Shown one piece after another: positions 1,196 through 31,882 of a DNA stretch of 32,172 nt (its first letter is position 1; every line of letters starts with the position of its first letter). A model generated the notes under the pieces. That model had not been told where the DNA came from. It did not search any database and was given only the letters and a program-made list of their open reading frames with translations. The DNA comes from Halieaceae bacterium (GTDB taxonomy: Bacteria; Pseudomonadota; Gammaproteobacteria; Pseudomonadales; Halieaceae): the NCBI GenBank assembly GCA_030066555.1, contig JASJBK010000002.1, positions 1-32,172 on the forward strand, written 5' to 3'. The translations under genes and the position numbers were made by a program.

Positions 1196-1921
1196 CTAGA
1201 GCCTGAATTCGTGCCCCAGGTAGACCTTGCGAACCTGGTCGTCCGCGAGGATGTCGTCGGCGCTGCCGGCGGCGATGATATGCCCCTCGCCGACGATGTA
1301 GGCTTTCTCGCAGATGCTGAGGGTCTCGCGCACATTGTGGTCGGTGATCAACACGCCGATACCACGGGCCTGCAGGTGAGAGACGATTTGCTTGATGTCG
1401 TTGACGGAGATCGGGTCGACCCCGGCAAAGGGCTCGTCCAGCAGGATGAAGTCGGGCTCGTTAGCCAGCGCCCGGGCGATCTCCACGCGTCGGCGCTCGC
1501 CACCCGACAGCGCCATGCCGGCACTGTCGCGGATATGGGCGATGTGGAATTCCTCCAGTAGCTCCTCGACCTTTTCCCGACGCTGGGCCCGCTTCAGGTC
1601 GCGGCGGTGCTCGAGGATGGCCATCAGGTTGTCCTGCACGGACAGCTTGCGAAAGATCGAGGCTTCCTGGGGCAGGTACCCAATGCCCTTGCGGGCGCGG
1701 CCGTGCATGGGCAGGCGCGTCAGGTCCTGGCCATCGATGGTGATCATGCCGCGGTCGGGTGGAATGATGCCGACGATCATGTAGAAGCAGGTGGTTTTGC
1801 CGGCTCCGTTGGGGCCCAGCAGGCCGACAATCTGGCCGCTCTCGATTTCGAGGCTGACGTCCTGCACCACGGCGCGGCCGCGGTAACTCTTGGCGAGATT
1901 GCTGGCGGTGAGGACGGCCAA
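1196..1921 (-). CDS. lptB: LPS export ABC transporter ATPase LptB
   Basis: LptB is the cytoplasmic ATPase that powers LPS extraction from the inner membrane by LptFG. The 241-residue length is standard. Visible motifs are Walker A (GPNGAGKTT, about residues 36-44), the ABC signature LSGGERRR, Walker B ending in [10 protein letters not shown], and the switch histidine in ITDHNVRE. The C-terminal extension ending in YLGHEFRL is typical of LptB rather than of generic LivG-type ATPases. It starts 10 bases after the lptA stop, so the two are co-transcribed. LptF and LptG, its membrane partners, are encoded in this same window at 26661-28816. Confidence 0.96.
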
Positions 1922-1931
1922 TGGGCGTCGC

Positions 1932-2477
1932 CTATTCGTCTTCTTCTTCGAGCTTGTGGGCCGGGATTACAACTACGACGCGGCTGTTGTTGCTGGTTTC
2001 GGCGGCGGCCTTGACCAACTGCTGGTTAATGAAATAGTCGATCAGGTCGCCCTGCACGGTCGAGCCGTCCTGCTCGACCTGGGCGTTTTCGCGCAGCTGG
2101 ACTCGCTCCTCACTGCGAAAGTACTCGATGATGTCGCCGTGGGCGTGCATCAGCGGGCTGTCGATTTCCGGCTGCTGTTGCATGCGTGCCGGCGAGCCCT
2201 CGGCGACAATGCGCCCGGCCTCATTTTCAGTCTGGTAGAAGGTAATGCGATCAGCAGTAATCTTGATGGTGCCCTGAACCAGTTCCACATTGCCCTGGTA
2301 GACCGTGCGCCCGGTTTTCTCATCCCGCAGGGCTTCGTCGGTGGTGATATGGATCGGCTGCTCGGTGTCGTCGGGCAGGGCGCTGGCCTGCATTGGCGGC
2401 AGCAACAAAGCCGCAAAGACCGCTGCCGCAAGTGCGGGCAGTGACCGGGTAGCCTGTTGCCTGCGAAATAATGCCAT
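1932..2477 (-). CDS. lptA: LPS transport periplasmic protein LptA
   Basis: LptA forms the beta-jellyroll bridge carrying LPS across the periplasm. I start it at the ATG at 2477, giving 181 residues and a clean signal peptide (hydrophobic [16 protein letters not shown], cleavage near MQASA). The OstA-fold region follows, with [36 protein letters not shown] and a second strand set near VQGDLIDYF. An in-frame ATG at 2537 overlaps the kdsC stop as ATGA and would add 20 charged residues ahead of the signal peptide; I think that is less likely to be used. lptC, which usually lies between kdsC and lptA, is not present. A TATACT hexamer (2484-2489, minus strand) sits just before the chosen start but lacks a good -35. 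Confidence 0.9.
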
Positions 2478-2533
2478 GGGTGCAGTATAGAGCCTGATCC
2501 CGCCCCGCCTGAAGCGCGGCTGTCGTGAAAAAG

Positions 2534-3070
2534 TCATGGCTCGTCCGCGTACAGGAAGGGCTGACGGGCCTGTTCCAGCAGGTCCTGGGCGTCGAGAATG
2601 AACTCGCAGGCCTCACGCACGGCGCCCATACCGCCGCTGCGCTGGCTGCGCCAGTCGGCGTGGGAGGCGACGAAATCGTCACCGTCGGCCACGGTCATGC
2701 CCAACCCCACTGCCTGGATGGCGCCCAGGTCCGGCAGGTCATCGCCCATGTAGGCCACCTGCTCGAGTGCGAGGTTCATGCCTGCCACCATTTCCTTGAG
2801 GGCATCGAGCTTGTCATCTCTTCCCTGGACAATGCGTTCGATGCCAAGTTCCCCGGCGCGGCGGTCGACAATGCTGGAACGACGGCCGGTGATGATGGCC
2901 ACCTCGATGCCGGCGGCCTGCAGCAGCTTGATGCCGAGTCCGTCCGGTGTGTAGAAGGCCTTGAGTTCTTCACCGACGTTGCCGTAGTAGAGCCTGCCGT
3001 CGCTGAGCACGCCGTCAACGTCCAGTACCAGCAGGCGAATGCGGCGGGCTTTCTCCAGCGCCAGGCTCAT
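2534..3070 (-). CDS. kdsC: 3-deoxy-D-manno-octulosonate 8-phosphate phosphatase KdsC
   Basis: KdsC removes phosphate from Kdo-8-phosphate, giving free Kdo for the LPS inner core. The 178-residue protein is a HAD phosphatase with the nucleophile motif LVLDVDGVLSDG (Asp17 and Asp19). A threonine-containing motif lies in AIITGRRSSIV, and the metal-binding motif is MGDDLPDL. It carries no cap domain, as expected for this tetrameric family. Its ATG overlaps the kdsD stop by four bases (ATGA), indicating translational coupling. The next gene downstream is lptA rather than the expected lptC. Confidence 0.95.
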   Translation of the reverse strand: MSLALEKARRIRLLVLDVDGVLSDGRLYYGNVGEELKAFYTPDGLGIKLLQAAGIEVAIITGRRSSIVDRRAGELGIERIVQGRDDKLDALKEMVAGMNLALEQVAYMGDDLPDLGAIQAVGLGMTVADGDDFVASHADWRSQRSGGMGAVREACEFILDAQDLLEQARQPFLYADEP

Positions 3071-5052: not shown

Positions 5053-5197
5053 AAACGTCCTATTCCTGTTAAAGTATCGCCGCTGCTGCGTGTGGCCGCC
5101 GTGGCTCTCGGATTCGCGCCTGAACTCGCGTTTGAACTGGTACGAGTCAGGGCGGTCCAAGTACAACGAAACATCGTATCATGCCGCGGGCGCCTGC

Positions 5198-5226
5198 ATT
5201 ATATAAGCGTCCCAGGGCTATGGAAA
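5198..5226 (-). promoter_or_regulatory. Candidate sigma-70 promoter for the yrbG-kdsDC-lptAB-rpoN operon
   Basis: On the minus strand TTTCCA (5226-5221) and TATAAT (5203-5198) are separated by exactly 17 bases. The -10 is a perfect consensus; the -35 is only partial. Transcription would begin near 5191, leaving a leader of about 140 bases before yrbG. It lies in the 249-base divergent spacer shared with mlaC. Confidence 0.55.
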
Positions 5227-5301
5227 CGGACCTCTATCGCAGGTGAGCGCTTTCAGGCGCGCCTGAATTACCAGCAAAACTAGCCAGGACTCACGGACAA
5301 T

Positions 5302-5979
5302 ATGACTGTGCTGCTTCGCAAATTCGCCTACTTTGTACTGCTTGCAACGGTGCTGTGCCCCCTGGCACTGGCCCAGGAGCCCGCCGGGGAAGACGCCTAC
5401 CAGGTCATTGAGCGAACCACCGACCGGGTCATGACCCTGGTGCAGGAAGCCAATGCCTATGCCGACGAAGACCCGGAGCGCTACTTTAATGAATTGCAGA
5501 CGGTGCTGGACGAGGTGGTGGATTTCGCCTATTTCTCCCGCGCCGTCATGGGGCCCTACGCCAGCCGCAAGCGCTACCAGTCGCTCAGCGACGAGGGCAA
5601 GCAGGAACTGCGCGGCCAGGTAACACGCTTTACTGAGGTCATGCGTGACGGCCTGGTGCGTACCTACGGCAAGGGCCTGCTGGCGTTCGGCGGCAGTCGG
5701 GCGGAAATCCAACGGCCGGACGGTTCGCAAGAACTCGGCAACCGGGCGGAAATCCGCCAGCTGATCTACAGCGATGCCCCGGATCCCTACGTGATCGAGT
5801 ACCAGATGCGCAAGGGTAAGGACGGCCAGTGGCGGCTGCGCAACCTGATCGTGGAAACCATCAATCTCGGGGTCATTTATCGCAACCAGTTCCAGGCGGC
5901 TGCTCGCGATGCCGACGGTGACATCAACTACGTGATCGACAACTGGACCACGCCCGAGGGCGAGGCTGAAGCGGGCTGA
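5302..5979 (+). CDS. mlaC: Periplasmic phospholipid-binding protein MlaC
   Basis: MlaC shuttles phospholipids between the outer-membrane MlaA complex and the inner-membrane MlaFEDB complex. The 225-residue product has a signal peptide (LLRKFAYFVLLATVLCPLALAQ). The MlaC/Ttg2D fold follows, with VDFAYFSRAVMGPYA near residues 73-87 and the conserved tail region WRLRNLIVETINLGVIYRNQF. The usual partners mlaF, mlaE and mlaD upstream and the STAS gene mlaB downstream are absent from this window. Upstream is the divergent yrbG, and downstream is ibaG after 62 bases. The missing permease genes may lie elsewhere or the route may have been rebuilt. Confidence 0.93.
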   Translation: MTVLLRKFAYFVLLATVLCPLALAQEPAGEDAYQVIERTTDRVMTLVQEANAYADEDPERYFNELQTVLDEVVDFAYFSRAVMGPYASRKRYQSLSDEGKQELRGQVTRFTEVMRDGLVRTYGKGLLAFGGSRAEIQRPDGSQELGNRAEIRQLIYSDAPDPYVIEYQMRKGKDGQWRLRNLIVETINLGVIYRNQFQAAARDADGDINYVIDNWTTPEGEAEAG

Positions 5980-11987: not shown

Positions 11988-12914
11988 CTAGAGTTTGTGG
12001 GCCTTGGGCCAGCGCCTCTTCAGGCAAATCCACTGGTCGGGCTGTTCGCTGATCCAGGTTTCGAAATGGTGGTGCACCGCCTCGGTCATGGCGATCGCCT
12101 TCTCGTCCGTGCTGCCACTGTCCGGCACCGGGATCGGTGCGTACAGGGTGACCCGGTAGCGCGCTTTGCCGAGCCGCTCACCGCGAATGGGCAGCACGGC
12201 GCTACCCGTCTTCAGCGCCAGCCTGGCCGCGCTGGTATTGCTCAGGGCGTCGCGACCGAAGAAAGGCACCAGGGCGCCGGTGTCGAGGCGGGTATCCATG
12301 GCCATGCCGATGGAGCGGCCGGCGTGCAGTTCCTTGAGCAATGGTCTTACACCCGCATCGGTGGGTACCAGTTTGACCCCGAAGGACTCGCGCAGCTTGA
12401 ACATCTGCTCGCGCAGGGCGGCGTTTGATTCCGGCGCATAGATCACGCTGACTTCCAGGCCCATGTCCAGCACGATCAGGTTGGTAACCTGCCAGGGTCC
12501 AACGTGGGCCGATACAAATACGGCGCCGCCGGCATCCAGCGCCGCGCGTGCCGCGGGATCGACGATAAACTCTATGCGCCGGTCGCGCTCTTCCCAGATC
12601 TGCCCCAGCTTGATCAGCTCGGCGGCAGATTTGCCAAGGCTGCGGAATATCCCGCGCACTTTTTCATCGCGCCAGGCCTGGTCCCGGTCCGGGAAGGCGA
12701 TGGAGAGGTTGATGTCGGCCTTGCGGGCCTTGTCACCGTAGGGGCCCAGCCAGCCGAAAAGCGCCGCACCCCAGGCGCTGGCGCGCTCCGGCGACAGCCT
12801 GTCCAACAGCCAGAACACGGTATTGAATATACGCGCTTCCAGCCACTGCACGCAGCGCCCCAGCCAGGGCCAGGCTCGGGCTGCGCGCTTGGGTACCAGG
12901 TAGTACTCGGGCAT
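11988..12914 (-). CDS. LpxL-like lysophospholipid acyltransferase family protein with altered active-site motif
   Basis: This belongs to the LpxL/HtrB-type acyltransferase family (membrane-associated transfer of acyl chains). I start at the ATG at 12914, giving 308 residues; the track's 489-residue ORF runs through the hydroxylase gene in a wrong frame. The family core is visible: NLSIAFPDRD, VFVSAHVGPWQVTNL, GMAMDTRLDTGALVPFFGR, and EQPDQWICLKRRW at the C-terminus. The catalytic HX4(D/E) motif here reads H137-VGPW-Q142, so glutamine replaces the acidic residue. It lies 20 bases after the hydroxylase and is probably the last gene of the operon from aasR. The acyl acceptor is unknown; lipid A, ornithine-type or ceramide derivatives are possible. 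Confidence 0.85.
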   Translation of the reverse strand: MPEYYLVPKRAARAWPWLGRCVQWLEARIFNTVFWLLDRLSPERASAWGAALFGWLGPYGDKARKADINLSIAFPDRDQAWRDEKVRGIFRSLGKSAAELIKLGQIWEERDRRIEFIVDPAARAALDAGGAVFVSAHVGPWQVTNLIVLDMGLEVSVIYAPESNAALREQMFKLRESFGVKLVPTDAGVRPLLKELHAGRSIGMAMDTRLDTGALVPFFGRDALSNTSAARLALKTGSAVLPIRGERLGKARYRVTLYAPIPVPDSGSTDEKAIAMTEAVHHHFETWISEQPDQWICLKRRWPKAHKL

Positions 12915-12934
12915 GGGCGCGAGCGTGTAGTGTC

Positions 12935-13594
12935 TCAGGCCTGTTGCGCGGGTCGCTTTGCGTCTGCGTCGGGCAGCGTGCCAAACACGTGGTCCCAGAG
13001 CGGGGAACTCACGCCGTAGCGACCGCCTTCGCCAGAAAAGTGGTGCTTGAGATGGTAGTGCTTGAGGTACTTCGCCAGCGGGCTGCGCATCGGGAAGTGA
13101 TGGGTGGCGTAGTGAATGTAGTCGTAGCACAGGTAGCCGATTATGAAGAACGCAAAAAACGGCTGTAGCCACGGCTGCGGTATCGCCAGCCCGAACAGCA
13201 GGTACAGGGCTGCCATGATCGGCACGCCGCCGGCGGGTGGCATGACCAGGCGCGTCTTGTCCTTGGGATCGTGATGGTGGTTGCCGTGGAAAATAAACAC
13301 GAACCACTTGCCGATGCGGCTCTTTGCCGGGAAGTGAAACACGAAGCGGTGCAGCAGGTATTCCGCCAGTGTCCAGGCGAATACACCAGCTGCCGCCATG
13401 GCCAGCAGCGCCCACAGGCCAAAGCCATGCACCGCCACGCTGCGCCACAGCAGCCACGCGGCCACCGGGCTCCAGAATACCAGTGGCGTAATCGGGTGTA
13501 CGTGGGACAGTCGCTCGAGGGTGTCGTTCTCGAACAGTCGGATGGACTGGTGCTCAGTCTTGGGCTGGGCGTTTTGTTGCGTATCAGGCTGCAT
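12935..13594 (-). CDS. Fatty acid hydroxylase / sterol desaturase family membrane protein
   Basis: This is a di-iron integral membrane hydroxylase of 219 residues. The histidine boxes are complete: HRFVFH (82-87), HGNHHHDP (from 103), HYATHH (161-166) and HYHLKHH (179-185). The closing motif GVSSPLWDHVFGTLP is typical of fatty acid 2-hydroxylases and related sphingolipid hydroxylases. Hydrophobic helices lie around residues 36-75 and 123-158. The start overlaps the end of the preceding acyltransferase gene by 11 bases, so expression is coupled. Given aasR and cerR just upstream, hydroxylation of the ceramide acyl chain or long-chain base is the favoured role. A fatty acid or carotenoid substrate cannot be excluded. 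Confidence 0.88.
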   Translation of the reverse strand: MQPDTQQNAQPKTEHQSIRLFENDTLERLSHVHPITPLVFWSPVAAWLLWRSVAVHGFGLWALLAMAAAGVFAWTLAEYLLHRFVFHFPAKSRIGKWFVFIFHGNHHHDPKDKTRLVMPPAGGVPIMAALYLLFGLAIPQPWLQPFFAFFIIGYLCYDYIHYATHHFPMRSPLAKYLKHYHLKHHFSGEGGRYGVSSPLWDHVFGTLPDADAKRPAQQA

Positions 13595-14558
13595 AGCTGT
13601 CTATACCGGAATCGTTCCTGGCCGGATTGGCAGGCGCGGAGTTTTTCTGTTTGTCCCAGAAGCGCTTTGAAGCAAACCAGTCTTGCGGGTGCTTGCGAAT
13701 CCAGGCTTCGAAATGTTGATGGACTTGGGCGGTCATATCCACTGCCTGCTCGTTTTCGCTGGCGTCGGGGTCGCTCGCCCGGATCGGCTCGTGGAAGGTG
13801 ACCCGAAACCTCGCATTGGCCAGGCGTTCAACCTGCACCGGCACCAGGTCACAGTTGAATTTCAGTGCCAGCTTGGCTGGCATCAGCGTGCTCAGCTTGT
13901 CGCGGCCGAAGAAGGGTACGGGAGAGCCCTCGTCGATGCGGCGGTCCATGACAGCACCCGCGGTGCGGCCCTTCTTCAGCGCACGCATCAACAGGCGCGC
14001 ACTGTTGTCCCTGGAAAGCAGCTCGCAGTTGAGCGCCAGGCGGCTGTCGGACAGCATCTTGTCAAGGTAGGGATTGGTCGGCGGCGAATACAGGCTGGAG
14101 TTGGGCATGCCCAGTTTGGCCATGGCCGAGCAGACGACTTCCCAGTTACACACATGAGCGGTGGCGACCACGCAGGGGCGCGAGAAATCAGGTTGCTTTA
14201 CCACGATGTCCAGGCGCTCGTCTTCGGCAAGAATGGTCGCCAGATGGGGGTATTCGCCCAGTACCCGCCCGGCAGCTCCCCAGGCATCGACCACCAGGGC
14301 GTCGAGCGCTGCATCGTCCAGCTCTGGAAAGGCAGTGGCGAAATTGTTGCGGTAGATCGCCGTCTTGCGCTTCATGCGCGGCCCGATCAGGCGCCCCACC
14401 CGACGTCCCAGGCGTGAGGAGAAATCCACCGGTAGCAGCGTGAACAATTTCGCCAGCACCCACACCATGGCAAAGTCGAGTCGCCACAGTGCCCTCTGCA
14501 GGCGAGGGTGACGGCGCGCAATCTTGCGTAGCGGGCTACCAATGATGAATTCAGCCAT
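13584..14558 (-). CDS. LpxL-like lysophospholipid acyltransferase family protein
   Basis: This is a second LpxL/HtrB-type acyltransferase (324 residues) in the same operon. Its active-site motif is intact: H135-VCNW-E140 in VVATAHVCNWEVV. Other family landmarks are NNFATAFPELDD, GAVMDRRIDEGSPVPFFGR, and RKHPQDWFASKRFWDK. A hydrophobic N-terminal stretch (FAMVWVLAKLFTLLPV) anchors it to the membrane. It starts 113 bases after the cerR-like gene and overlaps the hydroxylase start by 11 bases. The presence of two divergent paralogs around a hydroxylase suggests lipid tailoring rather than the canonical lipid A late acyltransferase, but the substrate cannot be read from sequence. Confidence 0.87.
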   Translation of the reverse strand: MAEFIIGSPLRKIARRHPRLQRALWRLDFAMVWVLAKLFTLLPVDFSSRLGRRVGRLIGPRMKRKTAIYRNNFATAFPELDDAALDALVVDAWGAAGRVLGEYPHLATILAEDERLDIVVKQPDFSRPCVVATAHVCNWEVVCSAMAKLGMPNSSLYSPPTNPYLDKMLSDSRLALNCELLSRDNSARLLMRALKKGRTAGAVMDRRIDEGSPVPFFGRDKLSTLMPAKLALKFNCDLVPVQVERLANARFRVTFHEPIRASDPDASENEQAVDMTAQVHQHFEAWIRKHPQDWFASKRFWDKQKNSAPANPARNDSGIDSYAA

Positions 14559-14671: not shown

Positions 14672-15595
14672 TCAAAGTGCCGTATTGTCCAGTGTCAGCA
14701 GGCCGTCGTGAAGGCCGATTTGCGGCGACCAGCCGGTGGCCTCGCTGATGGCCCGATTGTCGGTCACCCAGTTGTCGAAGCGCAGTTCCCGCAGCTTGGG
14801 TGGCGTGAGCATGGCGGGTTTGCCGGTCAGCCGCCCCAGGCCCAGACTCAGTGCCGCGACTGCATTCAGCAATGGCGCCGGTACCTGCCACAGACGAACC
14901 TCGCGGCCGTATACCGTGCCGGCTATGGTGGCCATTTCGCGCCAGTTGTAGCCACCGCTTTTTTCATCCCCCAGCTCGAATACCTGGCCTGCCGCTGCCT
15001 CGCCATCCAGGCAGGTCGCGATTGCTTGCACCAGGTCGTCAACGTGCAGCAGCGAGGTGCGCGCCTCGATGCTGCCCGGCACCAGGGCAATGCCGCGAGC
15101 CATCCAGTCAAAGATGGCGCGCATTTCCTCGTCACCTGGGCCATAAATGGCTGGCGGCCGCAGCACTACCCAGTCCAGGCTGCTGGCCTTCACCAGCTCT
15201 TCGCCGGCGCGTTTGCTGCGGGAATACCAGGACAGCTGCGGCTCTCTCGCGGCCAGCGACGACACATGGATGATTCTTGCCCCCGGCGCTACAGAGCCGG
15301 CTGCGGTCAACACAGCGCGGGTACCCTCGCAGTTGGAGACCAGGAAATCTTCGGCTTTGTTGCCGCGCACCACGCCGGCCAGGTGGATTACGGCGTCGGC
15401 ACCGCTCAGCAGCTGCTGCAGGGCGTCCGGCGTTTGCAGGGAGCCGGTGACGGTCTCGATACTATCCGGGAGCCGGCTGGCCTTTTGCGGGCTGCGCAGC
15501 AGTGCGCGCACGCTATCGCCGCGCCCGAGAAGATGGGCGCAGAGGCGTTGTCCTATGAAGCCTGTCGCGCCGGTCAGCGCAACCAGTCTGGCCAC
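14672..15595 (-). CDS. cerR: NAD(P)-dependent epimerase/dehydratase-type reductase, CerR-like
   Basis: This is an extended short-chain dehydrogenase of 307 residues. It has the nucleotide-binding motif TGATGFIG (residues 8-15) and the catalytic YXXXK at Tyr124-Lys128 (WYSRSKRAGEE). PPAIYGPGD is the typical mid-domain motif of the family. In Caulobacter, CerR, an enzyme of this class encoded beside spt and aasR, reduces the 3-keto group during ceramide synthesis. Here the gene starts 12 bases after the aasR-like gene, and spt, acpR and a cerS-like gene are all nearby. The assignment rests on family plus context; the fold alone would also fit other sugar or steroid dehydrogenases. Confidence 0.78.
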   Translation of the reverse strand: MARLVALTGATGFIGQRLCAHLLGRGDSVRALLRSPQKASRLPDSIETVTGSLQTPDALQQLLSGADAVIHLAGVVRGNKAEDFLVSNCEGTRAVLTAAGSVAPGARIIHVSSLAAREPQLSWYSRSKRAGEELVKASSLDWVVLRPPAIYGPGDEEMRAIFDWMARGIALVPGSIEARTSLLHVDDLVQAIATCLDGEAAAGQVFELGDEKSGGYNWREMATIAGTVYGREVRLWQVPAPLLNAVAALSLGLGRLTGKPAMLTPPKLRELRFDNWVTDNRAISEATGWSPQIGLHDGLLTLDNTAL

Positions 15596-15607
15596 TCTGG
15601 CGCCGCT

Positions 15608-17377
15608 TTAGGCGGTGGCTACCCTGAGGCGAACTTCCTCGGCCACCGCGTTGAGGCGCTCATTGTCATGGGCGGCAATGAAGTCCTGGCGTGCCTTGGA
15701 GCGCGACAGCTTGCCTGAAGAGGTCCGGGGCAGCGAGTGGGGTGCTACCAGTTCAACGTAGCAGTCGAGGCTCAGTTCCATGCGCACCAGGGCGGTGAGG
15801 CGACGCACCAGGTTATTACGCTTGTTGGGGTCGGTTTCACGACACTGGACCACCAGGACACAGAGCTCGTCGCCCTCATGGTCCGGAGCGGAGAAAGCGA
15901 GGGCATCGCCCACCCGTACTTCCGGCTGGGACTCAGCGATGTGCTCGAGATCCTGCGGCCAGATATTGCGGCCGTGGATGATGATCAGGTCTTTCTTGCG
16001 ACCGGTGATAGTGATGATGCCGTCGGCCAGGTAGCCGATATCACCGGTGTTGAGCCAGCCGTCTTCGCACAGGGCGTGGCTGGTCTCTTCCGGCAGTCCG
16101 AAATAGCCTGACATGACGCTGGGGCCGCGCAGGTAGATGACACCGCTGTGCCAGTCCGGCAGCGCCTTGCCATCGTCGTCGCGTACTTCGACGTCGAAGC
16201 CTGGCAGCGGATAGCCGCAGTTGACGAAGTGGCGGCCGCGGCCGCTGTTTTCTGACTCTTCCAGCAGCACCGCTTCGTGGTGGTCTGCCAGGTGGTCGCT
16301 GTCGATATGGTGGGTGGTGAAGCCGGTGTTGAGCGGGGAAAAGCTGATCCCCAGGGTGCACTCGGCCATGCCGTAGCAGGCCAGGAAGGCGCGACGGTCG
16401 AAGCCGCAGGTCTCCAGCATGTCGGCAAAGTGTTCCAGCGTCTGCGGCCGGATCATCTCGGCGCCAATGCCGGCCACGCGCCAGCTAGAGAGGTCGTACT
16501 GCTCGAGATCGGCGGGCCGAACCCGGCGCGCGCACAGGTCGTAGCCGAATGACGGCGCAAAGGAAATCGTCGCGCGGGTCTTGGTCATCAGGTTGAGCCA
16601 CTGGCGCGGGCGCATGGCGAACTCGCGGGTGTCCAGGTAGTCGATGGATACCTGGGCGGACATGGGTACCAGCACAAAGCCGACCAGGCCCATGTCGTGG
16701 TAGTAGGGCAGCCAGGACATCATGCGATCGTCGGAGCCCATTTCCAGACCCTGCATGATGGCCTGCAGGTTGGCCATGGCAGTCTGGTGCTCGATGACGA
16801 CGCCACGCGGGAAGCGGGTGCTGCCCGAGGTGTACTGGATGTAGGCGATATCGGTGGGCTTCACCTCCGGCAGCGCCAGGCCGGTATCGGGCAGGGCGTG
16901 GAAGGCTTCCGGCTCCTCGACCATGCGAATGGCCAGGTCTTCGCTGGCTTCCTGCAGGAAAGGCAGGTAGCCCTCGGAAGCGACACCAATGGCGGCATCG
17001 CTGGCTTCCAACAAGCGCTGCAGCTGGGCAACGTAGGCGCTGTGGGCGCCGACCTTTACCGAGGCAGGCAGGGCAACGGGGATCAGGCCTGCATACTGGC
17101 AGGCGTAGAAAAAGCGAATGAATTCGGGGTCGGTTTCAGCAACCAGAGCCACGCGGTCGCCCTTGTGCAGGCCGAGGCCCAGCAGCTTACGCGCCAACAT
17201 CTGCGACTGTTGGCGCAGGTCAGCGTAGGAGATGCTGGCATAGATTTCGCCGCGACCGGTATAGAAATTGGAGCCGGTCTCGCCCTGGGCCGCGTAGTCG
17301 AGCGCATCGGTGAGCGTCTCGAAATCTGCCGCGCGATAGGCCAGGTCGTGGTGCGTCGGCGTAGCGTTAGGTTGCAA
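15608..17377 (-). CDS. aasR: Fatty acyl-AMP ligase / acyl-ACP synthetase, AasR-like
   Basis: This ANL-superfamily enzyme activates a fatty acid as acyl-AMP for transfer to a carrier protein. The 589-residue length and the motif YIQYTSGSTRFPRGVVIEH are characteristic of fatty acyl-AMP ligases. Further ANL motifs are MSWLPYYHDMGLVG, YGMAECTLG, LNTGDIGYLADGIITITGRKKDLIIIHGRNIWPQDLE, and the C-terminal catalytic lysine region LPRTSSGKLSRSKARQ. The start is an unusual TTG at 17377, supported by a GAGGGGG ribosome site eight bases upstream and by the lack of an in-frame ATG nearby. In Caulobacter the equivalent enzyme loads the sphingolipid-specific ACP. It is first in the leftward operon. Confidence 0.87.
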   Translation of the reverse strand: MQPNATPTHHDLAYRAADFETLTDALDYAAQGETGSNFYTGRGEIYASISYADLRQQSQMLARKLLGLGLHKGDRVALVAETDPEFIRFFYACQYAGLIPVALPASVKVGAHSAYVAQLQRLLEASDAAIGVASEGYLPFLQEASEDLAIRMVEEPEAFHALPDTGLALPEVKPTDIAYIQYTSGSTRFPRGVVIEHQTAMANLQAIMQGLEMGSDDRMMSWLPYYHDMGLVGFVLVPMSAQVSIDYLDTREFAMRPRQWLNLMTKTRATISFAPSFGYDLCARRVRPADLEQYDLSSWRVAGIGAEMIRPQTLEHFADMLETCGFDRRAFLACYGMAECTLGISFSPLNTGFTTHHIDSDHLADHHEAVLLEESENSGRGRHFVNCGYPLPGFDVEVRDDDGKALPDWHSGVIYLRGPSVMSGYFGLPEETSHALCEDGWLNTGDIGYLADGIITITGRKKDLIIIHGRNIWPQDLEHIAESQPEVRVGDALAFSAPDHEGDELCVLVVQCRETDPNKRNNLVRRLTALVRMELSLDCYVELVAPHSLPRTSSGKLSRSKARQDFIAAHDNERLNAVAEEVRLRVATA

Positions 17378-17872: not shown

Positions 17873-17910
17873 GCGCGCCCCACGCCTTCCGAGTACCGAG
17901 TAGAAAATCC

Positions 17911-19053
17911 ATGAACGGCCAGAGCGCCGCGTCCATCCGCCTGGAGACGCTGGAAACCCCGTCACAGCTTCGCGATTTCCTGGCGCTGCCTCATCGTCTA
18001 TACGCTGAAGACAGCGCCTGGATTGCTCCGCTGACCCTTGAGCAGCGCCAGCGCTTCTCGCCAAAGAACCATTTTTTCCAGCATGCACGCTGGCGCGGCT
18101 GGGTCGCCTATCGCGACGGCGTGCCGGTCGGTCGCATTACCGCCCAGGTTGATGAACTGCACCAGGCTCACCACGGCGACCATGTGGGTTACTTCGGTAT
18201 GGTCGAGGGAGACGATGACGCCGAGGTTTTCGCCGCCCTGTTTGAAGCTGCCGAGAGCTGGCTGCGCAGCGAGGGCATGCAGCGGGCCCGCGGTCCGCTC
18301 AACCTGCACATCAACGAGGAAGTGGGCCTGCTGGTCGACGGCTTCGATACCCCACCCTTCGTGCTGATGGGGCACGCCAGGCCCTTCTACGGAGAGCGCA
18401 TCGAAAGCCATGGCTATCGGGGCGCCCGCGACTTGCTGGCCTACCACATCCGGCCCGACTTCGAGGCGCCTCGAGTCATGACGAAGCTGGCCGAGCGGGT
18501 TTCGGGCCGTGTCACCGTGCGCGCGCTGGATCGCGCGCGGATCGACGCCGAGGCGGCAGTCATGCTGGAAATCTTCAACGACGCCTGGAAACACAATTGG
18601 GGCTTTGTGCCTCTGGGAGAAGAAGACTGGGCGGATACGGTCAAGACCCTCACCAGGCTGATGCCAGACGACTATATCCAGATCGCCGAGTACGACGGCG
18701 AGCCGGTGGCCTTCATCGTTGCCCTGCCCAATATCAACGAGGCCGCTCGGGACCTGAAGGGTCGCCTGTTCCCGTTTGGCTGGCTCAAGCTGCTGTGGCG
18801 CCTCAAGGTCCGGCACCCCCGGACCGCCCGGGTGCCGCTGATGGGCGTGAAGCAGGAATTCCAGCACTCTCGGCTGGGTCCCACGCTGGCCTTCATGGTG
18901 ATCGATGCAGTGCGCAAGGCCCTGCATGCCCGCGGCGTCGAAGACGTCGAAATGGGCTGGATACTTGAGGACAACGACGGGATGCGCAATATTATCGAGA
19001 CCATCGGCGGCCAGGCGTACAAGCGCTACCGCGTGTACGAAAAACCTCTCTAG
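17911..19053 (+). CDS. cerS: GNAT-fold N-acyltransferase, bacterial ceramide synthase (CerS)-like
   Basis: This 380-residue protein is of the large GNAT-fold acyltransferase family that includes the Caulobacter ceramide synthase, which N-acylates the long-chain base. Visible landmarks are the N-terminal LPHRLYAEDSAWIAPL, the segment GRITAQVDELHQAHHGDHVGYFGMVEGDDD (GNAT strand 4 to loop region), GPLNLHINEEVGLLVDGFDTPP, EIFNDAWKHNWGFVPL, and GWILEDNDGMRNIIETIGGQAYKRYRVYEKPL at the end. The start at 17911 fits the mapped promoter. Context with spt, acpR, aasR and cerR makes ceramide synthase the best call. Without that context it would be labelled only a GNAT-family hypothetical protein. The next gene starts nine bases downstream. 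Confidence 0.8.
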   Translation: MNGQSAASIRLETLETPSQLRDFLALPHRLYAEDSAWIAPLTLEQRQRFSPKNHFFQHARWRGWVAYRDGVPVGRITAQVDELHQAHHGDHVGYFGMVEGDDDAEVFAALFEAAESWLRSEGMQRARGPLNLHINEEVGLLVDGFDTPPFVLMGHARPFYGERIESHGYRGARDLLAYHIRPDFEAPRVMTKLAERVSGRVTVRALDRARIDAEAAVMLEIFNDAWKHNWGFVPLGEEDWADTVKTLTRLMPDDYIQIAEYDGEPVAFIVALPNINEAARDLKGRLFPFGWLKLLWRLKVRHPRTARVPLMGVKQEFQHSRLGPTLAFMVIDAVRKALHARGVEDVEMGWILEDNDGMRNIIETIGGQAYKRYRVYEKPL

Positions 19054-20897: not shown

Positions 20898-23350
<2,453 letters not shown>

Positions 23351-23475: not shown

Positions 23476-23718
23476 TCAGGGATTGAGGCCCTGGACCTTC
23501 TGGGCCAGCTCACCGATGGTGTTTACATCCGGCAGGATGTTGAGGGGGATGGAGATATCGAAGTGATCCTCGATCTTCTCGATGAACTCCATGACTTCCA
23601 GGGAGCTCAGGCCGATGTCCGCCACCAGGTCGGTGGTTTCCGTGAGCTCAACGTTTTTCTTGTTCAGCGGCCCAAGCGCGCCGTACATGAATTCGAGGTA
23701 TTCGCGGTAGTCGGCCAT
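23476..23718 (-). CDS. acpR: Acyl carrier protein, sphingolipid-associated (AcpR-like)
   Basis: This is an 80-residue acyl carrier protein with the four-helix acidic profile expected of the family. The phosphopantetheine site is Ser39 in ADIGLSSLEVMEF; the usual Asp before the Ser is replaced by Ser38 (SSL instead of DSL). It sits directly upstream of spt on the same strand, far from any fab genes. In Caulobacter, a specialised ACP beside spt receives the acyl chain from AasR and supplies the SPT reaction. The same role is the best inference here. It is divergent from an ELM1-family gene whose ATG lies 76 bases away. Confidence 0.88.
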   Translation of the reverse strand: MADYREYLEFMYGALGPLNKKNVELTETTDLVADIGLSSLEVMEFIEKIEDHFDISIPLNILPDVNTIGELAQKVQGLNP

Positions 23719-23794: not shown

Positions 23795-24868
23795 ATGCCA
23801 GCGATTTGGTTAATAGACGCTTACCGCGCAGGTGAGCGCGGTCAGGTGCGTGCGCTGGCAGATGCGGTGGCGGCGTCGCTGGGCTGGCCCTGTCGCCGCA
23901 TCGAGCTGGACTATCGCTCGCACATCATCCTGCCGCATATTCTTGGCGCGGCCAGTGTCAGCGGCATTACCGAGGCCTCGCGCCGGGCGCTGGCGCCGCC
24001 CTGGCCGGACCTGGTGATTACCTGCGGAGTGCGCAATGAGCCGGTGTGCCGCTGGATCCGCAAACAGTCCGGGGGGCACACCCGCTACCTGCACCTGGGC
24101 CGTCCCTGGGGTCGGCTCGACAGTTTCGACCTGGTGGTGACCACGCCCCAGTACCGCGTGCCCGATCGGGCCAATGTGGTCAACAACGAACTCACCCTGC
24201 ACAGCTTTGACGGCGATCGCCTGCAGGCCGCCGGTGCACGCTGGGCCGAGACCTTTGCGTCACTGCCGCCACCCTATGTGACGGTGAACATCGGTGGCGA
24301 CAGCGGGCCGTTCACTTTCGGGCCGAAGGCGGCTGAGCGGCTGGCGCAGGATGCATCAAGCCTGGCGCGGGAACTGGGTGGCTCGTTGCTGGTGTCCACC
24401 AGTTCGCGCACCCCGGTCGCGGCAGCAGATATCCTTGAGCGGAACATCGATGTGCCCTGTCATGTGTACCGCTGGCGCCCCGACGACCAGGACAACCCTT
24501 ACCTGGGGATGCTGGCGCTGGCGGAGCGGCTGGTGGTCACCGGTGACAGCATCGCCATGCTCTCTGAGGCCTGCGCCACCGGCAAACCTGTCTATATCTA
24601 TGACCTGGGCGGCATGCGCGAAGAGGTGCCCGTCGAGCGCGACTTTCGCTGGGGCGGGTTTTTCTACGGGCTGTTGATGCGCTGGCTCTGGCAGCGGCTC
24701 AGTCGCGACATCACCCTGGTACACCGGCAACTGTTGGCAGCGCAACGCGCCAGCTGGCTGGGCGAGGCGCCGCCCTCGCAGGCCGAGGCGCCGGTCAATG
24801 ATCTCGCCCGTGCAGTCAGTGCCACCCGGGCACTACTTGGCGAGCCCCAGGCTGTCGACCTCGAGTAA
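23795..24868 (+). CDS. ELM1-family (DUF1022) GT-B-like protein, copy 1
   Basis: This is a 357-residue member of the mitochondrial-fission-ELM1/DUF1022 family, whose bacterial members resemble nucleotide-sugar glycosyltransferases. The N-terminus IWLIDAYRAGERGQVRALADAVAASLGW is diagnostic. GLY/SER loops follow in VTVNIGGDSGPFTFG and VTGDSIAMLSEACATGKPVYIYDLGG; the latter is the donor-site-like segment. I start at the ATG at 23795, since the longer ORF enters the acpR promoter region. A paralog lies at 30021-31142. The 3' end overlaps the convergent ABC transporter gene by 36 bases. Attachment of a sugar to the ceramide is a reasonable guess, but the biochemical activity of the family is not firmly known. 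Confidence 0.8.
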   Translation: MPAIWLIDAYRAGERGQVRALADAVAASLGWPCRRIELDYRSHIILPHILGAASVSGITEASRRALAPPWPDLVITCGVRNEPVCRWIRKQSGGHTRYLHLGRPWGRLDSFDLVVTTPQYRVPDRANVVNNELTLHSFDGDRLQAAGARWAETFASLPPPYVTVNIGGDSGPFTFGPKAAERLAQDASSLARELGGSLLVSTSSRTPVAAADILERNIDVPCHVYRWRPDDQDNPYLGMLALAERLVVTGDSIAMLSEACATGKPVYIYDLGGMREEVPVERDFRWGGFFYGLLMRWLWQRLSRDITLVHRQLLAAQRASWLGEAPPSQAEAPVNDLARAVSATRALLGEPQAVDLE

Positions 24869-26584
24869 ACGAGCGCTGCCGTCACTCAACTGGTAAACGT
24901 GGTCGGCGGCGCTGACCATGGCGCGGTTGTGAGAAATGGCGAGGATGGTGAGGTGACCCTTGAGCTGCTCCATGGATTCCCGCACTGCGGCCTCGCTGTC
25001 GGGATCGAGTGCGCTGGTGGCCTCATCCAGGATCAGCAGTTTGGGGTTGTTGACCAGGGCGCGGGCGATAACGATGCGCTGGCGCTGCCCGCCGGAGAGT
25101 TTGCCGCCCCGTTCACCCACCACCGTTTCCAGGCCCTCTGGCAGTCGCGCCACGAAGTCCCAGGCACCGGCGGCCTTGAGTGCACGTTCGGCGTCTGCTG
25201 TGCTGAGCGCCGGGTCGCCAAGGGTAACGTTGTGAAGGACGCTGTCGTGTAGCAATACGGTGTCCTGGGGTACGTAGCCAATCATGTCGCGCCAGGCGCG
25301 GATATCCAGTGCCTCCAGGGAGCGACCGTCGAGCTGCACTTCACCGCTGTCGGGGCGCAGCAGGCCGATGGTCAGGTCGATGATGGTGGTTTTGCCCGCA
25401 CCCGATGGCCCGATCAGGGTGGTCAGCGAACCGGCGGGAATTTCCAGGGTGAGCCCGTTGAAGACCGGGTGCTTGTCGTAGGCAAAGTTCACCTGGTCGA
25501 AGCGGATGCTGCTGTCGAGGCTTGGCGTGCTGCCGCCGTGCAGCTGTTCGCGGGCGTCATTGGCGGCGGCGATACTGTCCTGCATGGCCCAGTAGGCGCT
25601 CTCGCCCTGCACCAGTTTCTGGTACTGCTTCTGCACCTTGCCCAGGAAACTGAAGGCGCGGCCCAGGGTCACCACCAGTACCATCACTGTGGTGAGCGCC
25701 ATGCCGTAGCCCTCCAGCGCCACGTAGATGCCCAGGCAGATGAACAGTGCGAACATGAGCTCCTGGGCGGAATCCAGCACCGCGGCGCTGAGCACCTGTA
25801 CTCGCAGCGCCTTGTTGAGCCGCCGTGTTTCGTGGGTCAGCACGGTGTCTGCCAGGTGTTCCCGGGCCATGGCCTTGAGCGGTTTCACCGATTGGAGGGT
25901 GTCTGTGAGGTTGGCGATCAGCGAGGTCATCAGGTTGGTCTGTTTGCGGCCTGCCTTGCGGGTTATGCGCACCAGGAAGTGGGACAGCCCGATGACCACC
26001 GCACCGGCGCCGATGGCCACCAGCGACGCCTGCCAGGACAGGGCGAAGGCAACGGCGCCATAGATGACCGCCTGGATCAGGAAGGTAATGGCGGTGGCGC
26101 CGTGCACAAAAGAGGCGGAGGAGCGTTGGGCCTCCGTGGCCAGCGAATTGGTGAGCTTGCCCACCGGCTGGTGCAGGAAGTACTCCCACTTGCTGCGCAG
26201 CACCGCGCGCAGCATCTGCAGGCGCAGGTCGGTGCCGACCTGGGCCGCGGTATAGCCCACCTGGCGCTGGGCAATCAGCAGGAACACGCTCTTCAGGGCC
26301 ACGCCGGCGACGATGATCAGCAGCATATTGCCGAGGGTGGGCGCGATGCCGAGGCCGTCTAGGGTATTGAGCACTGCGGCCTCAAAGCCGGATTGCGCTT
26401 CACTTTGTACGCCCATGCCGAGTTCGGCGGCTGCAGAACTCGCCTCGCCACCCACGGCGATGTTCAGCAGCGGCAGCAACGCGGACAGGCCGACACCCTC
26501 GGCGATACCCGACAGCAGCAGGGCCAGCAGCATCAGCACGGTGTGCAGACGGTAGGCCCGGAAAAAGCTGAGCATGAGTTTCAT
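24833..26584 (-). CDS. MsbA-like ABC exporter (fused permease and ATPase)
   Basis: This half-transporter of 583 residues has a type-I exporter membrane domain (about residues 1-320, starting MKLMLSFFRAYRLHTVLMLLALLLSG) followed by an ATPase domain. Walker A is GPSGAGKTT, the signature is LSGGQRQR, Walker B is LLILDEATSALD and the H-loop is ISHNRAM. I start at the ATG at 26584; the ORF track extends through lptG in another frame. It follows lptG by 76 bases on the same strand and faces the ELM1 gene. lpxK, the usual neighbour of true msbA, is absent. An inner-membrane flippase for the modified lipid made by this locus is the favoured role; the housekeeping MsbA is the alternative. Confidence 0.87.
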   Translation of the reverse strand: MKLMLSFFRAYRLHTVLMLLALLLSGIAEGVGLSALLPLLNIAVGGEASSAAAELGMGVQSEAQSGFEAAVLNTLDGLGIAPTLGNMLLIIVAGVALKSVFLLIAQRQVGYTAAQVGTDLRLQMLRAVLRSKWEYFLHQPVGKLTNSLATEAQRSSASFVHGATAITFLIQAVIYGAVAFALSWQASLVAIGAGAVVIGLSHFLVRITRKAGRKQTNLMTSLIANLTDTLQSVKPLKAMAREHLADTVLTHETRRLNKALRVQVLSAAVLDSAQELMFALFICLGIYVALEGYGMALTTVMVLVVTLGRAFSFLGKVQKQYQKLVQGESAYWAMQDSIAAANDAREQLHGGSTPSLDSSIRFDQVNFAYDKHPVFNGLTLEIPAGSLTTLIGPSGAGKTTIIDLTIGLLRPDSGEVQLDGRSLEALDIRAWRDMIGYVPQDTVLLHDSVLHNVTLGDPALSTADAERALKAAGAWDFVARLPEGLETVVGERGGKLSGGQRQRIVIARALVNNPKLLILDEATSALDPDSEAAVRESMEQLKGHLTILAISHNRAMVSAADHVYQLSDGSARLLEVDSLGLAK

Positions 26585-26660
26585 GGAGCGGTTCCGGTGG
26601 GGCGCTGGGCGAAGCGCGGCATTATGCCGACAGCGGCAGCGCTTCTCAAACCGGCAGCAT

Positions 26661-27731
26661 TCACCAGCGCATCCTGCGCAAAAGCAGCAGGGCCGCCAGG
26701 AACACGATGACGGTGGGCAGGAAGGCCACCACGGGTACCGACAGGGAGAGCAACTGGCCCAGTGCGTAGATGATCTGCGCGCCGAGGTAGAAGAGGATGC
26801 CCACCAGGGCGCCGATGCCGAGATTGACACCGAAATTGCTGCTGCGCCGCGAGCCCAGGCTGGCGGCAATGGGTGTGGCCAGCAGCACCATGGCGCCCAC
26901 GGTCAGTGGCAGGGCCAGCTTCTGCCAGAATGCACCGAAATAGCTCTGCCATGCCTGGCCGTTGGCCTTCAGGAACTGGCTGTACTTGTACAGCACTGAC
27001 AGGGTCATGCTGTCGGCAGTCAGCGCCAGGGAGGGCAACTCGTCCTTGTCCCACATGTTACCCACCTCCAGCTCTGCGTGGCCGCGGGTGCGGAACACGC
27101 CATCCACAAGGTATTTTTCTCGCACCCGCTTGAGCAGCCAGCGCCGCCCGGAGCGGACTTCTGCAGCGCCCGCGTGCAGGGTGCGCACCAGCTGGCCGTC
27201 CTCGTCAAACTCGTAGACGTCGATACCGCCGGGTACGCCGTTCTCATCGAGCCGGGCAAGGTGGACGTAGCGGCGCTCATTGCGTGACCAGACGCCGCCG
27301 TCGGGAATGCGCACGTCGCCCCGGTAGCGCAGATACTGGCGTTCCTGTTCCGCATGCTGGTGCAGCCTTGGGGTGGCGAATTCGAGGCCGGCCCACAGCA
27401 GTGTCATCAGCAGCAGGGTAGGCAGCGCGATGGCGGTCAGCAGCGACCTGCGCGAGACGCCGGCGCAGCTGATCACGGTGAGTTCGTTGTAGCGGTCGAG
27501 GTTGGCCAGGGCCATGATGCTGCCCAGCAGCGCGATCACCGGCGCCAGTCCCACCAGCTGCTGGGGCAGTGTGTAGATCGTATAGCGGGCCACCGCCAGG
27601 GCGTCGTAATCGAAGCGGGTGCGCTCCAGTTCGGTGATGAAAGCAATCAGCCCGAACACAGCGCCCACGACCAGCAGCACCATCAGCCAGCCACGTACCA
27701 GGTTGGCGGCAATGTAGCGGCGCAGGATCAC
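26661..27731 (-). CDS. lptG: LPS export permease LptG
   Basis: LptG is one of the two six-helix permeases that extract LPS from the inner membrane with LptB. The product of 356 residues starts with a GTG at 27731 that overlaps the lptF stop (GTGA), so it is coupled to lptF. The N-terminal helix with LRRYIAANLVRGWLMVLLVVG is typical. It is followed by LDRYNELTVISCAGVSRRSL, which forms the coupling-helix region contacting LptB, and a periplasmic jellyroll around residues 120-260. Three closing membrane helices end the protein. pepA, divergent from lptF in many gammaproteobacteria, is not here. Confidence 0.93.
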   Translation of the reverse strand: MILRRYIAANLVRGWLMVLLVVGAVFGLIAFITELERTRFDYDALAVARYTIYTLPQQLVGLAPVIALLGSIMALANLDRYNELTVISCAGVSRRSLLTAIALPTLLLMTLLWAGLEFATPRLHQHAEQERQYLRYRGDVRIPDGGVWSRNERRYVHLARLDENGVPGGIDVYEFDEDGQLVRTLHAGAAEVRSGRRWLLKRVREKYLVDGVFRTRGHAELEVGNMWDKDELPSLALTADSMTLSVLYKYSQFLKANGQAWQSYFGAFWQKLALPLTVGAMVLLATPIAASLGSRRSSNFGVNLGIGALVGILFYLGAQIIYALGQLLSLSVPVVAFLPTVIVFLAALLLLRRMRW

Positions 27732-28816
27732 GAGGCGTTCCTCGCGCGCCGGCTGCGCCGCAGGCGTGGCGGGTTGACCAGCAGCACCAGGATCACGGCG
27801 ACCACCGCATGGGCCGCCCACAGGCCGGGGAAGCGCGGCACTGTGCCCTGTTCGATGCCGGTGCGCATGACGGCGGTCAGGCTCAGCAGGCCGATGTAGA
27901 TGCCCAGGGCGATGAAGAAACTGCGCAGTCGCGACTCGCGCGGCGCGGTGCGTCCCAGCGGTACGGCCACCAGCGCCAGCAGCAGGGTGGCCAGCGGCGT
28001 GGTGATGCGCCACTGGTACTCGGCGATGTCCTTGGGCTCCGGGGAAAGTGACAGGTTCAGGGTGGTTTCCGCCTTGCGACGATACTGCTCGCGGGCCTCC
28101 TCGTTGGCGAGGCTCACCTCCATGCGGTTGAACTTCAGGGTGATGTCCTGGCGCTTGCGCTTGTCGAGCAGGTAGTTGTAGCCGTTGTGAAATTCCGCGG
28201 TCAGCGCCTGGCCCGGGTTGAGGGTGGGCAATGCCGCCGACTCGGCGATAATGATCTCCTCGCGACCCTTGCCCGGGTAATGGCGCTGCATGAATATTCC
28301 CTTGTGCAGGCCGCGTTCCAGGTCCAGGCCCTCGGCGATGAAGGTGTAGTCGCTACCCTCCATATTCACGAACTCTCCCGCTGCCATCTTCTTCAGGTCG
28401 AACTGGGCCGCGGCTTCAGCCTCGAGTCGGTAGCTCTCGCGGTAGGCCCAGGGGCGACCCAGTATGGAAATAACGCCGGTGATGATGGCCACCACTACCG
28501 CCAGTTTGAACACCGCTTCGAGAATCCGCGCACGGCTCAAGCCCGCGGCATACAGGGCGTTCATTTCCGCATCCCGGTACATGCGCCCGATGGCAGCCAG
28601 CACCGAGAAAAACAGGGCCGAGGGGAGCAGCACCTCGAGGGTGACCAGCGTATTGAGCCCTACCAGCTGGAAGGCGGTGAGCATGTCGAGTTTGCCCTGG
28701 GCCGCCAGGCCCAGCTGCACAGAGGCGGAATAGCCAATGAACACCAGCACCAGCAGGCCGAGGCCTGACACGAAGGGGCGCAAAATTTCCAGGCTGATGT
28801 AGCGATCGACGATCAA
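27728..28816 (-). CDS. lptF: LPS export permease LptF
   Basis: LptF pairs with LptG in the inner-membrane LPS extractor and docks the periplasmic bridge. I take the TTG at 28816 as the start (362 residues, (M)IVDRYISLEILRPFVSG). It aligns with the family N-terminus and has GGGA eight bases upstream. An in-frame ATG at 28858 adds 14 polar residues and lacks a ribosome site. Landmarks are MYRDAEMNALYAAGLSRARILEAVF (LptB-contacting coupling region), WAYRESYRLEAEAAAQFDL, the periplasmic jellyroll near residues 140-260, and the closing helices. It shares a 225-base divergent spacer with the sulfotransferase gene. Confidence 0.92.
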   Translation of the reverse strand: MIVDRYISLEILRPFVSGLGLLVLVFIGYSASVQLGLAAQGKLDMLTAFQLVGLNTLVTLEVLLPSALFFSVLAAIGRMYRDAEMNALYAAGLSRARILEAVFKLAVVVAIITGVISILGRPWAYRESYRLEAEAAAQFDLKKMAAGEFVNMEGSDYTFIAEGLDLERGLHKGIFMQRHYPGKGREEIIIAESAALPTLNPGQALTAEFHNGYNYLLDKRKRQDITLKFNRMEVSLANEEAREQYRRKAETTLNLSLSPEPKDIAEYQWRITTPLATLLLALVAVPLGRTAPRESRLRSFFIALGIYIGLLSLTAVMRTGIEQGTVPRFPGLWAAHAVVAVILVLLVNPPRLRRSRRARNAS

Positions 28817-28916
28817 GCGAGCGGTCCCTGTCCGCAGCGGGGGGTGGTTCCCGCGCATTGTAACGCAAGCCAGTAAGACCGACGCGGGTGGCAACCGGTT
28901 CCCAGAGGGGTGCATC

Positions 28917-28945
28917 TGGCCATTTTGGCCCGCTTGGCGCATAAT
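28917..28945 (+). promoter_or_regulatory. Candidate promoter for the sulfotransferase-ELM1 pair
   Basis: TGGCCA (28917-28922) and CATAAT (28940-28945) are separated by 17 bases on the plus strand. Both are imperfect matches to sigma-70 boxes. Transcription would start near 28952, leaving about 90 bases of leader that contain the 25-base repeat. Confidence 0.4.
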
Positions 28946-28987
28946 TGCGCGCTTTTCGAGGCGGGGCCCCCCGTCCAATCCCATGAT

Positions 28988-29027
28988 GGCCTCCAGCCCA
29001 AATCCAAGAGAGGGCCTCCAGCCCAAA
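28988..29027. repeat. Direct repeat in the sulfotransferase leader
   Basis: GGCCTCCAGCCCAAA occurs twice, at 28988-29002 and 29013-29027, with a 25-base period. The bases after each copy are also similar (CCAAGAGAG and CCAGAGAAAG). The repeat ends 14 bases before the sulfotransferase ATG, so it places two near-identical purine-rich stretches next to the ribosome site. It may be a recent slippage duplication. Confidence 0.55.
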
Positions 29028-29041
29028 CCAGAGAAAGTCGG

Positions 29042-30019: not shown

Positions 30020-30020
30020 G

Positions 30021-31142: not shown

Positions 31143-31765
31143 CGCATCCCGAGAACGTTCTTCATGAAGTGGGTGCCGAAGCGGCTGATGCGCTGGGCTG
31201 CCACCGCCAGCGGGCTCTGGTCCAGGTAGTTGAGCTGCACCATGCGCCGCTCACCCACGAAGCGGGTGTGGCCGTGCCAGGAATGGTCGGTGCGGCGGAA
31301 GGCCAGCAGGGTGCCGCCGAGCGGCGCGACCTGGGCCGCGTAATCCCCGATATCGGACTTCGAGCGCAGCATGCGTAACTGGCCGTCCTCGTGATCCCAG
31401 CCCTCGTTGAAGTACACCAGCACAGTGATCACTTTGCTTTTGTGATCGGTGTGAATGTTGCCATCGGTGCGCTCGCAGAACTTGCGGACCGTCACCGTGG
31501 TCGGCAGGCTGGCGAGATCCATGTCGAAGCGCTCGCCGAGCACCTCGGCGAAGGCCTGGCCCTGGATTTCATCCATCAGCGCGCCGAAGGCCGGACCGTA
31601 GCTCAGGTTGTCCAGAGCGTGATTGGCGGCCGTGTCGATCGCCGGGTAGTCGGCGTTCACCTTCGCCAGGGCGTCAGCGGAAAGGAAGTCCGGCACCACC
31701 ATGAAGTCGAAGGGGTCGCTGTTGAGGTCCGCGCTGCGGACTGCGTCGAGGTTGATCAGAGACAT
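31139..31765 (-). CDS. 2OG-Fe(II) oxygenase family protein
   Basis: This 208-residue protein carries a 2-oxoglutarate-dependent dioxygenase fold. The iron ligands are in NIHTDHKSKVITVLVYFN (His105, Asp107) and in DHSWHGHTRFVGERR (distal His164, then an Arg that would bind 2-oxoglutarate). GGTLLAFRRTDHSWHG is typical of prolyl-hydroxylase-like members. The ATG at 31765 is preferred over the longer track start. It is convergent with the ELM1 gene, sharing the CTAG stop, and divergent from the second sulfotransferase. It could hydroxylate a lipid or sugar part of the product; a protein or small-molecule substrate is equally possible. Confidence 0.83.
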   Translation of the reverse strand: MSLINLDAVRSADLNSDPFDFMVVPDFLSADALAKVNADYPAIDTAANHALDNLSYGPAFGALMDEIQGQAFAEVLGERFDMDLASLPTTVTVRKFCERTDGNIHTDHKSKVITVLVYFNEGWDHEDGQLRMLRSKSDIGDYAAQVAPLGGTLLAFRRTDHSWHGHTRFVGERRMVQLNYLDQSPLAVAAQRISRFGTHFMKNVLGMR

Positions 31766-31882
31766 GCGCGAATTGTACGGGCAGGCGCGAAACCGCAGCA
31801 AGTGAGAGGCCCGGTAATAGTGCGGCAAATCAAGAATTCCTGTATCATGCGCCGCCTTTTCAAGCCGGAGAATTCCCCGCCC

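Follow-up and report, generated by a model that had tools for sequence, protein, structure and literature searches.

Loss of lptC beside a distinct, sphingolipid-linked LptFG pair in Halieaceae

In a stretch of 32,172 nucleotides from a Halieaceae genome (hereafter the window, meaning the whole stretch that was analysed), the gene for LptC is missing from between kdsC and lptA, and this absence is real, being due neither to chance nor to an assembly gap. As judged from gene content and alignments, the window's lineage has lost lptC, canonical LptFG and the lipid A genes. It has kept LptA, LptB and LptD, together with an LptFG pair of a distinct type (F2G2) that is linked to the serine palmitoyltransferase gene spt and has a residue other than Arg at position 212 of LptF. 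We consider it quite likely that LptB2F2G2, LptA and LptD, working without LptC, export sphingolipid to an LPS-free outer membrane, a grading that covers the whole scenario of replacement and losses.

The kdsC-lptA junction of the window

A minus-strand run of the window comprises rpoN, lptB, lptA, kdsC and kdsD, and the features that concern the missing gene are as follows.

1196-1921, minus strand: lptB (open reading frame; adjoins lptA in relatives)
1932-2477, minus strand: lptA, with signal peptide (TIGR03002 above cut-off; kept in 27 of 27 relatives tested)
2478-2533, minus strand: kdsC-lptA junction, the lptC site in LptC-bearing relatives (interval comparison with relatives)
2478-2537, minus strand: putative in-frame 20-codon lptA extension from the ATGA overlap (conserved in two congeners)
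2534-3070, minus strand: kdsC (open reading frame)

A sequence-only reading of the window had placed the lptA start only 56 bases after the kdsC stop, and the coordinates bear this out (stop 2534-2536, likely start 2475-2477, 2478-2533 between them). It had also described an ATGA at 2537-2534 that overlaps the kdsC stop and, read in frame with lptA, lengthens the protein by 20 residues, which is confirmed. So is its claim that lptC is missing here, as LptC is found neither by Pfam PF06835 nor by a family-specific profile. The profile search for LptC that it proposed gave no match in the window's own genome (G000; PF06835), and the proposed comparison of junctions showed that the congeners and many genera share the kdsC-lptA arrangement. 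The own genome is metagenome-assembled, 86% complete and in 267 contigs, so its gene losses lean on the congeners G001 (98% complete) and G003 (95% complete), both of which have the same junction, including the ATGA overlap and the in-frame extension. The absence of lptC is judged to be real because these profile searches were null, because the congeners share the junction and because interval lengths in relatives agree. A search of a plasmid collection returned distant KdsC matches only.

Loss of lptC across the family

The order kdsC-lptA-lptB is found in the congeners and in a large part of the Halieaceae (OM60/NOR5). LptC was matched by Pfam in 94 of 140 family genomes, the calls for G110 and G117 being weak matches inside 800-residue frames alone, and in none of the other 46; it is absent from 29 of the 78 genomes with a completeness of 90% or more and a contamination of 5% or less. 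A family-specific LptC profile, read down to E<=5, detected no LptC in 28 LptC-minus family genomes, where it gave just three short fragments (E 0.2-0.5), and recovered all five positive controls (1e-14 to 1e-75). The distance from the kdsC stop to mature LptA is 53-192 nt in 17 LptC-minus genomes versus 612-648 nt in five LptC-plus relatives.

Remnants of the gene persist in several relatives. In G018 and G004, open reading frames of 21 and 36 codons, respectively, start at the ATG that overlaps the kdsC stop and end in an LptC tail (LESIYAKPLY and LNVESIYVPTQR, each followed by a stop), and G070 retains NVENIYAQPQP with its stop in the kdsC-lptA interval. The consensus of the LptC tail in relatives is PNVESxY, and an LptC-like tail arose in none of 1000 shuffles of the 17 LptC-minus intervals. 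On the evidence of these intervals and stubs, this is a clade-level loss in which lptC was deleted in place. The internal deletion suggested by the sequence-only reading is thus borne out, the clearest scar lying in G018, G004 and G070. Its further idea that the old lptC start became fused to lptA is only possible, since nothing recognisable as an lptC tail or relic is present in the 56 bases of the window itself. G032 (100% complete), from another family of the same taxonomic order, has no LptC by either profile and may be a separate case.

A distinct LptFG pair and its residue at position 212

26661-27770, minus strand: lptG2 (TIGR04408 above cut-off)
27728-28858, minus strand: lptF2, the sphingolipid-linked LptF type (TIGR04407 above cut-off; LptF fold)
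28175-28177, minus strand: codon for Asn228 of LptF2, the residue that aligns with Arg212 of E. coli LptF

The predicted fold of LptF2 (mean pLDDT 77) matches that of solved LptF. The window's protein is 58-92% identical to LptF of LptC-minus relatives and 23-33% to that of LptC-plus ones, and 92-93% identical in the closest Halieaceae metagenome-assembled genomes. LptC is absent from 37 of 39 genomes with LptF2 and present in 92 of 101 without it (table 37/2/9/92; Fisher p 7e-23, with genomes counted as independent and relatedness uncorrected). Of the nine genomes that have neither, two (G002 and G069) come from genera in which LptF2 is otherwise found, genus g5 accounts for two more and genus g12 for the other five, while G010 and G066 hold LptC, a canonical LptFG pair and F2G2 together. 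In a survey of LptFG pairs, F2G2 was present in every LptC-minus genome tested and canonical LptFG in none of them. Second pairs in G006, G064 and G145 were considered as canonical and rejected, as scores against E. coli and window LptF place them in a third type (loci L158, L159, L165). An LptA-like gene lies near the third-type pair of G145, and second LptA genes occur in G006 and G016. A sparse search of 399 phylum genomes found no close LptF2 outside the family and one further distant LptF (35%, G254); the LptF2 tree is weakly supported at depth.

Mutants of E. coli that lack lptC survive with LptF R212G, R212S or R212C (PMC4986956, PMC9972910), for which reason the sequence-only reading had pointed to this residue. 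In the window it is Asn, not Arg. Alignment places Arg at the equivalent position in all five canonical LptF of the family, whereas each of the 26 LptF2 aligned has Asn, His or Tyr there. The LptF2 of G010 and G066, which retain LptC, also have a residue other than Arg; the change is one clade's trait and perhaps reflects one event.

The sphingolipid gene cluster

The spt gene and the LptFG pair share one cluster in the window, which comprises the following features besides lptF2 and lptG2.

14672-17377, minus strand: NAD-dependent epimerase-like reductase and fatty acyl-AMP ligase, candidate sphingolipid genes
17902-19053, plus strand: GNAT-fold protein, by analogy a candidate bacterial ceramide synthase (weak Pfam GNAT; spt-like distribution)
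22148-23350, minus strand: spt, serine palmitoyltransferase (NF047599, 593 bits, cut-off 500)
23476-23718, minus strand: acyl carrier protein (domain match, conserved cluster)
23798-24868 and 30021-31142, plus strand: two ELM1-like (PF06258) proteins, candidate glycosyltransferase-like head-group genes
24833-26587, minus strand: MsbA-like ABC transporter, candidate flippase (profile match and conserved cluster)
28910-31771, no single strand: sulfotransferase, ELM1-like and oxygenase, candidate head-group genes (conserved cluster)

The order of genes is oxygenase, ELM1-like, sulfotransferase, lptF2, lptG2, MsbA-like ABC transporter, ELM1-like and acyl carrier protein, followed by spt, murA, phosphatase, nucleotidyltransferase and the GNAT gene, and it is largely conserved in 18 genomes. 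All 20 LptF2 genomes tested have both spt and the GNAT gene, and the six tested that lack LptF2 have neither. The sequence-only reading was right that the neighbouring LptFG and sphingolipid genes matter, but the pair is of a distinct type and not the family's LPS-type pair.

The murA gene (20898-22151, minus strand) adjoins spt in the clusters of most LptF2 genomes and is absent from those of the LptC-plus genomes G010 and G066. Beside the sphingolipid genes lie two LpxL-family acyltransferases and a fatty acid hydroxylase (11988-14558, minus strand), which, in a genome without lipid A genes, are perhaps reused on sphingolipids.

Loss and retention of LPS genes

Of 24 LptC-minus genomes tested, 17 have no LpxC, whereas none of ten LptC-plus genomes lacks it. 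With a joined E. coli query for LpxA, LpxB, LpxD, LpxK, WaaA and LptD, no match to the first five was obtained in G000, G001, G003, G008, G009, G016, G132, G134, G143 and G148, several of which are 98-99% complete. LptD was the sole strong match in these ten genomes (in the own genome G000:C213, 31% to E. coli LptD), and residual matches were short, to the LpxD repeat region, at E 1e-6 to 1e-3. The substrate pathway (LpxA, B, C, D, K and WaaA) is thus absent from G000, G001 and G003. The sequence-only reading had hinted at a remodelled export bridge; this is more than remodelling, as the window's lineage no longer has even the lipid A pathway.

Other relatives have kept LPS genes without LptC (G004, G006, G018, G068, G133 and G140), and in G142 LpxC and WaaA are missing while LpxA, B, D and K are present, a pattern that may reflect gaps or ongoing decay. 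A PyrG-KdsA-Eno tree distributes the LPS-gene-free genomes over three positions, each with a support of 100. G016 is placed next to G006, which has LPS genes, G009 groups with the genus of the window, and the third position is the G132-G008 clade. This placement suggests that LPS genes were lost at least three times; the deeper nodes are weak, and the LptC-plus G023 nests among LPS-gene-free genomes. Relatives are available at each stage, with two exporters and LPS genes, with one exporter and LPS genes, and with one exporter and no LPS genes.

At 5056-5302, yrbG is followed by mlaC, with mlaFED missing, and bolA by hisG, with murA missing. These absences were considered as part of the same loss and rejected: the LptC-plus G010 also lacks mlaFED and murA there, so they are unrelated to the loss of lptC.

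Published phenotypes

Three of the genomes compared belong to named organisms, namely Pseudohaliea rubra DSM 19751 (G016, LPS-gene-free by our searches), Chromatocurvus halotolerans DSM 23344 (G006) and Ca. Litorirhabdus singularis IMCC14734 (G009). P. rubra is reported to be resistant to polymyxin B and colistin, to have 12:1 3OH and 12:0 2OH as its main hydroxy fatty acids, and to lack 10:0 and 12:0 3OH, the usual saturated 3-OH fatty acids (PMC3679898). C. halotolerans, C. litoralis and Luminiphilus are listed there as polymyxin-sensitive, with 3-OH acids of the saturated kind; of the four pigmented strains, P. rubra and C. halotolerans alone are listed with 12:1 3OH (PMC3679898). These two both carry the cluster, C. 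litoralis and Luminiphilus not having been matched to the genomes compared. The phenotype of P. rubra fits a loss of LPS without proving it, as 12:1 3OH is retained in the strain and resistance to polymyxin also arises in other ways.

A bridge without LptC and its alternatives

We propose that an ancestor would have had both the usual LPS exporter and the sphingolipid cluster with an LptF2G2 of its own. The LptFG of the exporter would then have been lost together with lptC, the latter by deletion in place. LptB2F2G2 would hand its lipid directly to LptA, much as in the E. coli LptF Arg212 mutants without LptC, and LptA would pass it on to LptD. Some descendants still have LPS genes, so that F2G2 should be the exit for their LPS, with no LptC involved. 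The window's lineage has also lost its lipid A genes, and what the shortened bridge brings to the cell surface there is probably sphingolipid. The direct hand-over from LptF2 to LptA, the substrate, the export itself and the order of events are what we infer here. With the standard LPS exporter swapped and the LPS genes lost, the outer membrane of this lineage is probably built on sphingolipids. The wider reading seems to us evenly poised: a family of free-living Gammaproteobacteria with several LPS losses after LptF2G2 replaced the LPS exporter, in which a six-part bridge without LptC carried both lipids and later sphingolipid only, the Arg212 site marking the switch as in the E. coli suppressors.

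The shortened bridge might instead export another glycolipid or glycan-bearing lipid, its linkage to the cluster being incidental. The LPS-gene-free genomes tested have kept kdsA and mostly kdsB (not found in G000 and G003); since these CMP-Kdo synthesis genes persist though WaaA is gone, Kdo may be added to another lipid or to a capsule. The sulfotransferase, ELM1-like and LpxL-like genes within the cluster or next to it point the same way. Kdo or sulfate could, however, equally decorate a sphingolipid, and spt, the acyl carrier protein gene and F2G2 occur together in 18 genomes with one shared distribution, which makes such a cargo unlikely.

We regard it as very unlikely that LptC has merely moved or diverged beyond detection within an ordinary seven-part machine. 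Its sequence is poorly conserved in general (PMC9972910), but the family-specific profile that recovered every control was null in all 28 genomes, which also tells against the relocation entertained by the sequence-only reading. The canonical LptFG partners are gone too, and no LptC-like domain (no LptC2) is found among the Pfam-scanned cluster proteins.

It is highly improbable that LptA, LptB and LptD are relics on their way out, with no Lpt export in the LPS-gene-free lineages. Decay does touch kdsC, which is a 63-residue piece in G132 (L172 4478-4666) and is not found in G008 and G143 (L175, L176), where the order reads kdsD-lptA-lptB, and LptD has no match in G145 and G151. LptA, on the other hand, is intact in 27 of 27 genomes tested, and ten LPS-gene-free genomes, which represent three lineages, have LptD. 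In a fragmented and incomplete metagenome-assembled genome, faulty assembly or binning, or a sequencing deletion at 2478-2534, might be suspected, but this is refuted by relatives, as congeners and many genera, including cultured strains, have the same junction.

Comparison with known systems and significance

The proposed bridge, LptB2F2G2-LptA-LptD, shares with the canonical E. coli LptB2FGC-A-DE the LptA, LptB, LptD, LptF and LptG families and the LptF fold, and differs from it in having no LptC, no Arg at 212 and no lipid A pathway in the lineage. The E. coli suppressors of lptC deletion likewise have a bridge without LptC and a substitution at the same LptF position. The present case is natural, however, with a divergent LptF and Asn, His or Tyr instead of Gly, Ser or Cys, whereas the mutants of E. 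coli retain LPS and depend on additional LptA.

In Caulobacter crescentus, the locus CC_1152-CC_1168 encodes LptC2, LptF2 and LptG2, for which carriage of sphingolipid has been proposed (PMC11324152). Likened by locus content, both systems have a second LptFG-type pair and a candidate flippase in a sphingolipid cluster, but Caulobacter keeps LPS and has LptC2, whereas no LptC was found here and F2G2 is the sole pair in most genomes. Sphingomonas has, according to work cited in PMC11324152, an LPS-free outer membrane with sphingolipids. There as here, sphingolipid genes are present and LPS is absent, in our case by gene content. Sphingomonas belongs to the Alphaproteobacteria, while the present lineage is gammaproteobacterial and has sister species, known from their genes, at each intermediate stage.

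E. coli requires LptC as an essential protein, and nearly all free-living Gammaproteobacteria are generally assumed to have LPS; in the marine species described here, some of which are in culture collections, both appear to have been lost. Full-text searches of open-licence papers gave no earlier report of such a loss, and a comparative-genomics paper on Halieaceae makes no mention of LPS, lipid A, Lpt or sphingolipids (PMC10100682). The route by which bacterial sphingolipids reach the outer membrane has been stated to be unknown (PMC11324152). The Halieaceae make it testable both how these lipids reach the outer membrane and how an Lpt bridge works without LptC.
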